Positions 21,028 to 24,720 of a DNA stretch of 64,000 bases are shown in pieces. This DNA is from Trichosporon coremiiforme (lineage: Eukaryota > Basidiomycota > Tremellomycetes > Trichosporonales > Trichosporonaceae). The notes beneath the pieces are model-generated. The model was given only the letters and a program-made list of their open reading frames with translations, did not search any database and had not been told where the DNA came from. Position 1 is the first letter of the stretch; the number at the start of each line of letters is the position of its first letter. The position numbers were made by a program, and so were the translations under genes. The stretch is taken from positions 155,128 through 219,127 of the forward strand of contig BCJJ01000002.1 of the NCBI GenBank assembly GCA_039545355.1, given 5' to 3'.

Positions 21028-24000
21028 ATGGCGTATGCTTATGAACCGGGACTGGCGCAGCCGCGCAAAGGCGCAGACCAGGATGCCGACATCCTGAAGG
21101 AGTTCAAGGTAAGTCGCCTGTCCCATATCCTCTCGCTCTCCCCCCTCGCGCCGCTCGCTCGTCACCCGACCGCTGGACCACAACATGACTAAGCAAGCTC
21201 GACCCATCGACACCTCGCTCGACGCTGCCCGCTATCGTCTGCGGGTTGCTAGTAGTTTGACAGCCTGGCCCATAACTTATCCCGGCAACCTTCTTGCTGT
21301 CCAGCAACCTCAAACAACCCCTCGCCCGCCTGCATGAGCTCAACCTTACCGCTCTCACGATTGCGGCAAGTCGGCTCGCCTCCACGCCAAAGCACCAGCT
21401 TACCTCCTTGCTTTCAGCTCGTTCGACACTCCGCACCCGCTGTACCCGATTCCAGAGACAGTGCGCCGACTGCGCATCTTGTCGTTTTCGACTGAAGCCT
21501 AAGTTGCTTAGACAGCTGCGTGCGGTTGGACTGTCTAAGTTTAGAAATGCGATAGCAGCGCGCAGGGCATAGCGGTCGCCAGTTCGCCTGTCTCGACTTC
21601 ACCGCAGTCAAGGTTCAGCGGGCCTGATTCCCTTATGCCGCTCGGCGACCCACCGAGCTGCCATTCAGCAACCCACGACTCGGCGGCATGCAGCATCGCC
21701 TCCACCCCACCCTCACCCTTGCAGAAGCACATGACTAACTGGCGCAGCGCAAACTCGCAGAGGACGAGGCGTACATCAGCTACTTCAACGAGCGCATCAA
21801 GATCGAACAGAGCTACGTCGAGGCACTGAACAAGCTGCACGCGAAGCAGATTGGAGCAGACTCGCAGGTCGACGAGTGAGTAACAGAGCTGCTGCGCGCG
21901 CTATCTCGCAGCCGAGCTTGCACGGCTGTCCTGGAGGTGACGGATCGAAGGGCCGTCGCTTCAGGCACGCCGCACGCGTCACCCACCTTTGGTTCATGCA
22001 CTGATACCAGCATTGGAAACAGGCGGTTCGCGTCTTCGACACGGAAAGCATGGTTCGAAGTGCGCGACTACACGGAGCGCGAGATCGCCTCGCGGGAGGC
22101 GTTCGTCCACGCGCTGCAGACTACGGTGGTCGCCCCGCTGACAGGGATCCGTGACACGCAGACGCGGATCCGAAACCGCATTCGTGAAGGGCTCAAGGAG
22201 GCGACAGAGCAGTACGAGTCGTACGTCTTCTCCAAGGTCCCGAAGCTTGAGAAGACGTACCGGAGCAAGGAACAGGCGCTGGAGGAGATCCGGAAGCAGG
22301 AAGCCGCAGTTACGAAGCAGCAGCAGCTCCTCAGCGAAACGAACCCCGCACTTCCCGAGAAGCAGCCGCACCCGTACATGTCGGCTGCCGCTTCGATTCG
22401 GGACGGGCATTCGATTCGCGCGCCGAGCATCAGCCGCAGCCGGCGATCGAGCGGGTCGTTTGACTCGGACGATCCCAACTTCCCGAGCCCGAACTCGCCG
22501 ACGTCACAATCCGGCCATCCCCCTCCATCTTATCACTCAACAGCTCCTTCGATCCACCTCGCGCCCCAGCAGCAGCAGGGCTACCACCCCTCAGCGCTTT
22601 CGCCGGCGACGACGATCCCCGACCGCAAGACACCGATCCACTTCTCGGGTGTCCAGAGCGGGCGCTCGCGTTCGGGCTCAGCGTCTGGTCTGACGCTGCG
22701 CGACGTCGATGCGCGCTCGAAGGAGATCATGAACGACATTGCGGCGCATGGGAAGAAGGGCTTCAGATCGCTTATGGACCGAATGGCGGGCGACCGCGAC
22801 GGCGCGCCTGAGAAGGCTGGTCCCGAGGTCGCCGTCTCGCCGCCCGAGTCCAATCTCCCGCGGAGAGGAAGCGTACGCGCGCACCCTGTCAGCGCGATGA
22901 AGAGCGTTAAGGCGCGTCGCGAGGCAGAGGAGGCCGACAAGGCGTACCGCAAGGGCGTGTTCCACACGGAGACGCTGCGATTGCGACGAGAGAAGCTGCA
23001 GACATCTGCAATTCGGAGCTTGACGGACCTGAACGAGGAGCTCAACATGAACCTGCGCGCGGCGCTAGCTCACTACGTGACGCACGCGCACGCGACGGCT
23101 GTTACGCTCGCGCAGGCGACTGAGGTCGTCGGCACGGCGATCAAGCACATCAACCTCGAGCACGACGGCATGCAGTTCCGGTCCAGGCTCCCGCCGATCG
23201 TCAAGAACAAGCCGGTCGTGTACGAGAACTACCACGTCGGACCGTGCCAGAGCCTGATCTTCGGTGTGTCGCTGACGGACTACGACTTTGCGCGCGGCGA
23301 AGGCGGCGATCATGGCCGTCCGCCTCTCATCGTCGAGAAGTGCATCGCTAGGATCGACGCCTTCGGCCTCGAGACGGAGGGCATTTACCGCATCTCCGGC
23401 CGCGTCGCCACAGTCCGCGACATGGTGCAGGAGATCGAGCGTACCGAGGCGCACTTCCAGTTCAAGCCAACGTACGACGTGCACTCGATCGCAGGCGTGG
23501 TGAAGCAGTACCTGCGCGAGTTACCCGATCCGTTATTCCCGCTGCCGCTCGCCGAGCGCGTCAAGATGACGGCCGACCGCGATTCATACCTTGAGAACAA
23601 GTTTAGCGTTATCCGCTCGCGCCTCCGAAGACTGCCGCCGATCCACCAGACGACGCTGCGCGCCATCATCGAGCACCTCGCTCGCGTCGCCGACCACGCA
23701 GAGGAGAACAAGATGGACGCGCGCAACCTCGCCGTCGTATTCAACAGTGTTCTCTTCGGTCCCGAGAAGACACCAGAGAACGGCGAGGCGCTCATGCAGA
23801 TGCAGACGTATCGCGACAGTGTCCTCGAAGACATGATCACGCACTGCGACCTGATCTTCGGCCCCGCCACGACGCCCCTCTCATACCACAGCGGCGAGTA
23901 CGACTATGGCGCGTACGAGGAGCAGGACGAGGAGAGCGAAGAGGAGGTCCCGAAGGAACGCAACACCGGCCCCGGGACTTCGCGCACCAAGCTTGTCCTT

Positions 24001-24720
24001 GTCACACCTCGTGACGATCTCAGCGACGACAGCGAGCCCCCCGTCGACAAGCTGACCCCGGACCAGTCCCTTAGCCTGCTCTTCGACCCCGCCCTCATCC
24101 CGCAAAGTATGCAGTCCGCCATTCCGAAGGAGTACCATCTGCGCCCCTTAGCCAGCGACGACTTCCTCCGCGCGCACTTTAGCCTCCTCTCCACTCTTTC
24201 CCAGTCCCCGGCACTCGCGCCATCAACGTACGCCAACCTCTTCAACAGCCTGAAGGCGAGTGGGATCTACTACATTCTCGTGCTCGTCGAGCGGGCGACC
24301 GACGAGCTCGTCCTCTCCGGAACACTTCTCCTCGAGCGCAAGTTCAGCCACGGCGGCGGCCTGTCCGGCCACATCGAGGACATCATCGTCAGCGAGCGGC
24401 TGCAGGGCCGCGGGCTGGGGCAGATCCTAGTCCGCGGACTGAGGGAGATGGCCGCCAACCTGGGCGCGTACAAGGTCATCCTCGACTGCCAGGAACGCAT
24501 GGTGCCGTTCTATGAGAAGTGCGGGTTCGCGATCCGAGGTAGGCAGATGGCGCACTATGTCGAGAGCCAGCCGCCGCCGCGGAAGGAGAGCCTCGCGGCG
24601 ACCAAGGCGCTCGGGTCTCCTAAGAAGCCGGCCTTTGAGCAGAATGATAGAAGGCTGGACGACATTGACGCCGAGACCGAGGCGAGCGACGTCACGTACC
24701 ACTTTCCCGTCACCGCCTAG
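21028..24720 (+). CDS. F-BAR / RhoGAP / glucosamine-6-phosphate N-acetyltransferase fusion
   Basis: Exons 21028-21108, 21748-21875 and 22011-24720 give 972 residues in one open frame. (1) F-BAR: about 20-175 and 355-450, helical and charged, split by a Ser/Pro-rich insert of roughly 180 residues that includes HPPPSYHS. (2) RhoGAP: about 485-690, with PLIVEKCIARIDAFGLETEG then IYRISGR carrying the arginine finger, YLRELPDPLFP, and NLAVVFNSVLFGP. This class binds curved membrane and turns off Rho GTPases. (3) After an acidic linker, residues 756-920 match fungal GNA1 end to end: SLLFDPALIP, YHLRPL, LLERKFSHGGGLSGHIEDI, the acetyl-CoA loop LQGRGLGQ, YKVILDCQERMVPFYEKCGF and MAHYV. GNA1 makes GlcNAc-6-P for UDP-GlcNAc, hence chitin and N-glycans. 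All key GNA1 motifs are present, so activity is expected. Intron 1 is 639 nt. Confidence 0.88.

Follow-up and report, generated by a model that had tools for sequence, protein, structure and literature searches.

In Trichosporon coremiiforme, a gene of three exons encodes a protein of 972 residues that joins an F-BAR/RhoGAP regulator to an acetyltransferase domain of the GNA1 type. It lies in the 64,000-nucleotide stretch of DNA analysed here (the window), whose numbering is used throughout. I propose, at a probability of about 55%, that this single protein combines a predicted membrane-binding F-BAR/RhoGAP with a glucosamine-6-phosphate N-acetyltransferase that is likely active and tethered to the cell cortex. 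An earlier note on this sequence had reached a similar view. Its single frame, complete GNA1-type domain and F-BAR/RhoGAP partner all stand; its suggestion that this might be the only GNA1 of the genome does not.

A regulator and an acetyltransferase domain in one frame

The exons splice in frame, without a stop, across introns with GT/AG borders, and the N-terminus agrees by eye with that of a Vanrija relative (P0006). The 2.7-kb exon without a stop that had first drawn attention is exon 3, open over all its 2,710 nt, and it carries the remaining F-BAR part, the RhoGAP domain, the linker and the GNAT domain. F-BAR, RhoGAP and a full GNA1-type domain share one frame, with no stop between them. 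The parts of the gene are as follows.

21028..24720, + strand: whole fusion gene, exons 21028-21108, 21748-21875 and 22011-24720 (stop included)
21097..22095, + strand: FCH/F-BAR Pfam match, residues 24-98, across both introns
23323..23766, + strand: RhoGAP domain, residues 508-655, with the predicted arginine finger R530 at 23389-23391
23842..24051, + strand: linker, residues 681-750, with the GTSRTK form of a tail motif found also in unfused relatives
24052..24561, + strand: GNA1-type GNAT domain, residues 751-920
24562..24717, + strand: C-terminal tail, residues 921-972, with VTYHFP at 24691-24708

Both regulator domains exceed their Pfam cut-offs in the spliced protein (PF00611, 29.5 bits against 27.8; PF00620, 138.3 bits against 24.5) and stand in the order FCH then RhoGAP, which places the protein among the F-BAR RhoGAPs. 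The same order is found in fungal F-BAR RhoGAPs such as yeast Rgd1 and the Agaricomycete proteins P0041 and P0188, and Agaricomycete F-BAR RhoGAPs among the matches listed are 35-45% identical to the fusion over the matched parts. The regulator had been called Rgd1-type. The architecture fits that name, but the best match of the RhoGAP domain in a PDB sequence search is human ARHGAP15 (2.7e-24), ahead of yeast Rgd1 (5.7e-18). The sequence EGIYRISG occupies residues 526-533 and contains R530, which I take to be the arginine finger of the EGIYRxSG motif; the E-G-x-Y-R columns and the subsequent G column are invariant in an alignment of 41 rows. To judge by long helices in the model of the Vanrija relative, an F-BAR-like coil, interrupted by a Ser-rich insertion, probably extends as far as residue 460 or so. 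With the full-length, single-chain model of that relative, Foldseek matched GNA1 and RhoGAP entries, yeast Rgd1 (5my3) among them, and no F-BAR structure was among the 50 matches listed, for a model whose mean pLDDT is only 68.

The linker, described before as acidic, does contain D and E, but at 18 of its 70 residues it is only mildly so. It holds, ahead of the GNAT domain, the motif G-S/T-S/A-R/H-T, which 43 of the 96 unfused relatives checked have as a tail motif. None of those 96 has the GNAT motif H[IL]ED[IV]. The tail of the fusion has two further motifs. VTYxFP lies 50-135 residues past FYExC in 18 of 33 fused protein clusters and in 0 of the 96 unfused relatives, and PPGAxP, mostly then followed by EPER, is found in 19 of the 33.

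The fusion is confirmed as real. A homeologous copy on another contig encodes 978 residues with the same fusion, 97% identical over residues 85-972, and differs from the first by coding indels of 3, 18 and 3 nt, at a coding dS of 0.51 between the two. An assembly error is excluded because this copy and other genomes, represented by 33 fused protein clusters, carry the fusion; the frameshift between the domains that the earlier note had advised looking for is absent, with the frame kept in the homeolog and all 33 clusters. Chance read-through is ruled out by the homeolog, with the coding indels just given, and by the clusters. There is a slim chance that the frame does not yield one protein at all and that GNA1 is produced separately, by way of an internal start or its own transcript. 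This gene has a methionine, Met770, at the start of the GNAT domain, but only 19 of 35 fused rows have it, which makes an internal start a weak candidate, and the frame through the linker is kept in both subgenomes as well as the 33 clusters.

Fused GNA1 (contigs C2 and C4) and stand-alone GNA1 (C1 and C3) each form a homeologous pair in this 42-Mb assembly, and many GNAT-type matches across the genome fall in near pairs. Hybrid Trichosporon species are known (PMC6642101), and such pairs are what their genomes would be expected to show; I infer that this organism is a hybrid of that kind. The C4 homeolog reads AHIEDI for GHIEDI, like the Cutaneotrichosporon relatives P0005, P0008 and P0010, and like P0011.

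Distribution and origin of the fused copy

A protein search of the kind that had been recommended, for RhoGAP and GNAT in one protein, found both in 33 of 66 clusters. Of these 33, 27 bear species names, all of Tremellales or Trichosporonales (Vanrija, Cutaneotrichosporon, Cryptotrichosporon, Kwoniella, Cryptococcus, Tremella, Naematelia, Kockovaella and other Tremellales). In a profile search, the best 120 of 484 matches comprised the same 33 with GNAT and 87 without. No name from Filobasidiales or Cystofilobasidiales is among the matches listed (66 of 66 clusters, 120 of 739 and 120 of 484). In P0007, P0011, P0026 and P0032 the gene model appears to be flawed, close to the GNAT domain or beyond it.

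Cryptococcus neoformans has the fusion: P0025, 1,093 residues, named "glucosamine 6-phosphate N-acetyltransferase", carries the same RhoGAP and GNAT, with FCH. The C. gattii complex is different. Four clusters (P0037-P0040, 22 member sequences) stop at the same residue, right before GNAT, and that end point is the residue where GNAT starts in C. neoformans. Therefore either the fused domain would be dispensable in the complex or it sits in another gene model. The two offer a natural comparison of species without and with the fused domain.

An essential enzyme would depend on a cytoskeletal regulator's transcript, it had been suggested, if the fused GNA1 were the only one. That idea fails because an ordinary GNA1 is present in both subgenomes. 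The genome, searched with the fused domain, gave eight matches. Two are the fused copies, and the C1 and C3 loci account for two apiece, 51-53% identical over the core; the remaining two are weak (E 0.01-0.03). The C1 locus is a canonical stand-alone GNA1 of six exons, 183 residues after splicing; the exons of the C3 locus match it, with the first two joined. At least 20 of the 27 named fused species have a stand-alone GNA1 by name among the 120 of 739 matches listed, and for C. neoformans the counterpart is the stand-alone CNF03220 of C. deneoformans (P0091). The other six have none by name among those 120 of 739 matches; theirs may be hidden in 90% clusters. The fused GNA1 is an extra copy, since ordinary stand-alone GNA1 exists elsewhere in the same genome and in fused relatives.

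How did the extra copy arise? In a tree of 90 GNA1 rows, the 35 fused domains (33 clusters, this gene and its homeolog) form one clade with support of 100/100, sister at 97/91 to 28 stand-alone rows taken as Tremellomycete, P0087 included; that stand-alone clade itself has 90/75. The tree left out P0034, P0035 and P0037-P0040, in which no GNAT stretch exceeds 140 residues; of the 120 stand-alone proteins listed, 66 were omitted as well. It points to a single origin of the fused domain, as the sister of Tremellomycete stand-alone GNA1. Several independent fusions are not needed, the fused domains being one clade.

The two genes also often appear to share a contig. Sizes of both contigs are known for 18 of the 20 same-name species, and in 14 of these 18 the fused and stand-alone genes are on contigs of equal size, read as the same contig; they are on different contigs in Kwoniella heveanensis, two Cutaneotrichosporon and Tremellales sp. 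Uapishka_1. Locus tags of the two genes are 37-59 apart in 8 of 11 pairs (seven Kwoniella, one Cryptococcus), while two Cutaneotrichosporon pairs among the 11 have them on different contigs; the model numbers in Tremella are 111 apart. Such an arrangement is compatible with, though no proof of, an intrachromosomal duplication that put a GNA1 copy in frame behind the RhoGAP gene. In this genome the fused GNAT has no introns and the stand-alone gene has five, but this says little about retroposition because the whole of exon 3 is intron-free too.

State of the fused domain

The Pfam match (Acetyltransf_1, residues 841-909, 42.5 bits against a cut-off of 20.7) covers part of a longer domain that includes an N-terminal LLFDPALIP segment, as in stand-alone fungal GNA1. 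The domain had been called complete on the strength of four motifs, and all four are in place. Positions within it, with the numbering of A. fumigatus Gna1 (AfGna1), are these.

24367..24384, + strand: GHIEDI, AfGna1 126-131
24403..24420, + strand: QGRGLG, predicted acetyl-CoA loop, AfGna1 138-143
24475-24489, + strand: VILDC
24499..24501, + strand: Met900, at the AfGna1 N170 column
24508-24528, + strand: FYEKCGF
24511..24513, + strand: Tyr904, AfGna1 Tyr174

Stand-alone GNA1/GNPNAT1 (EC 2.3.1.4; A. fumigatus Gna1, PDB 2vxk, 2vez) has in common with the fused domain GHIEDI, the loop, LDC, FYxKCGF, the N-terminal LF-P-LI segment and, as modelled, the fold. The fused domain differs in being the C-terminal part of a 972-residue RhoGAP and in lacking Asn at AfGna1 170. 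It is 36.9% identical to AfGna1 over 168 residues and 46.7% to its own genome's stand-alone GNA1 over 169; a phmmer search of PDB sequences matched it to A. fumigatus GNA1 at 1.3e-30. AlphaFold modelled it as a single chain with pLDDT 93.1. Foldseek superposed the model on A. fumigatus GNA1 with GlcNAc-6-P (2vxk) at TM 0.95 and rmsd 1.1, and the first 26 of the 50 matches listed are all either GNA1 structures or the acetyltransferase of T. brucei.

The active-site columns are kept nearly throughout the clade. AfGna1 H127, E129, D130 and the loop glycines 139 and 143 are present in 35 of 35 fused rows. Tyr174, presumably a catalytic residue, is Tyr in all 34 rows having a residue there. The D165 column is Asp in 34 of 35; Kockovaella imperatae (P0031) alone has Gly for the LDC aspartate, where the GNAT may be drifting or the gene model off. 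There are 37 near-invariant columns, in which 95% or more of the 121 stand-alone proteins (the 120 listed and the own genome's) agree; the fused majority keeps 35 of them, the exceptions being I147 (V) and N170 (K/M/R). At the latter column all 121 stand-alone rows have Asn, and none of the 35 fused rows does (28 have K, 4 M and 3 R). Loss of this Asn need not abolish activity, since in alignments read by eye the structurally solved proteins of C. elegans and T. brucei likewise differ there.

Other uses of such a domain can be imagined. AfGna1 is an obligate homodimer whose active sites are formed from both chains (PMC7324522), and a GNAT domain might serve only as a second dimer clamp, holding the F-BAR/RhoGAP dimer with no catalysis, a role that would sit well with the annotated C. 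gattii-complex proteins lacking it. I regard this as improbable: a clamp would have no use for a ligand loop and active-site columns, yet at most one of the 35 rows departs from any of these. The changes specific to the clade (A132V, K141G, I147V, N170K/R/M and K182R, in AfGna1 numbering) bear on two further ideas. One is that the fused GNAT acetylates a new acceptor, a cortical protein for example, in place of GlcN-6-P. A duplicated domain is free for its specificity to drift, and there are fixed differences from stand-alone GNA1 at these five columns; but the closest solved structures are GNA1 enzymes and the GNA1-specific columns are largely kept, so that a new acceptor seems quite improbable. 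The other, doubtful but worth entertaining, is that the domain is a metabolic sensor and not a supply enzyme, binding of acetyl-CoA or GlcN-6-P tuning the RhoGAP and coupling nutrient state to Rho signalling. The genome already has a bulk GNA1, a sensor would need the conserved ligand-site motifs as an enzyme does, and the five changes fit an altered role. Against it, 35 of the 37 near-invariant columns are kept, as in true enzymes.

Between subgenomes the GNAT domain has dN 0.017 and dS 0.69, and its dN/dS of 0.025 is the lowest of six segments (F-BAR 0.033, coil with RhoGAP 0.033, Ser-rich 0.049, linker 0.078, tail 0.125). Such values point to strong purifying selection on the fused GNAT, and the ratio rules out a decaying domain in this species. 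Identity to C. neoformans is 52.7% for the fused domain against 54.1% for the stand-alone enzyme, and to Vanrija 61.2% against 59.6%, so that the two have changed at a similarly slow pace from species to species. From sequence and model together, it looks intact.

A proposed second, cortical source of GlcNAc-6-P

BAR-domain homodimers are the membrane-binding unit, and the F-BAR of yeast Rgd1 binds PIP2 with preference (PMC5487894). For the cortical enzyme proposed here, the F-BAR part would form its dimer at the inner face of the plasma membrane, in keeping with the obligate dimer that GNA1 makes, and the fusion would set GlcN-6-P acetylation beside Rho-controlled wall synthesis. The fused copy would then provide GlcNAc-6-P locally, as a second supply on the way to UDP-GlcNAc and chitin. 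Bulk need would likely be met by the stand-alone enzyme, which would explain how the C. gattii complex does without the fused domain. Counting against the proposal are the absence of Asn at AfGna1 170 from every fused row, the ends of the C. gattii-complex proteins, the Gly of Kockovaella and the lack of an F-BAR structure among the 50 matches listed for the full-length Vanrija model. More tentatively, one may picture an ancient chimera that ties the switching-off of Rho to local sugar-nucleotide metabolism, in which a GNA1 dimer on an F-BAR dimer makes GlcNAc-6-P where Rho shapes the wall, occupancy by acetyl-CoA or GlcN-6-P feeding back on the RhoGAP: a second, cortical hexosamine enzyme for Tremellales and Trichosporonales, Cryptococcus neoformans included.

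The literature searched contained no description of a RhoGAP-GNA1 fusion, as the earlier note had supposed. The architecture is annotated piecemeal rather than unknown, because databases name several fused proteins GNA1: P0025 and fused UniRef entries called "glucosamine-phosphate N-acetyltransferase" are labelled as plain enzymes. Four RhoGAPs without GNAT also bear the name glucosamine 6-phosphate N-acetyltransferase (P0037, P0038 and P0040 of the C. gattii complex, P0265 of Mycena sanguinolenta); they seem to have received it as orthologues of the fused gene.

The fusion also matters for genetics. On glucose, A. fumigatus cannot do without GNA1 (PMC7324522). In C. neoformans, deletion of gnat1 (CNAG_05695), published as a glucosamine 6-phosphate N-acetyltransferase mutant, is viable and on glucosamine filaments as well as wild type or better (PMC5595294). 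CNAG_05695 must be one of the two C. neoformans GNA1 genes, and the existence of two would explain the viability, whichever was deleted. It is likely the fused one, as the wording of PMC5595294 is the NCBI product name of the fused P0025 (also of P0037, P0038 and P0040); stand-alone genes are named "glucosamine-phosphate N-acetyltransferase" (P0073, P0081) or "hypothetical protein CNF03220" (P0091). If CNAG_05695 is the fused gene, the gnat1 mutant is also without its RhoGAP; should it be the stand-alone one, the pathway must run through the fused enzyme.

An antifungal drug aimed at GNA1 would face two gene products in these fungi. A copy of an enzyme has become attached to a Rho regulator, and in two fungal orders strong selection maintains the combination. 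A coupling of wall-precursor supply to polarity signalling is now directly testable.
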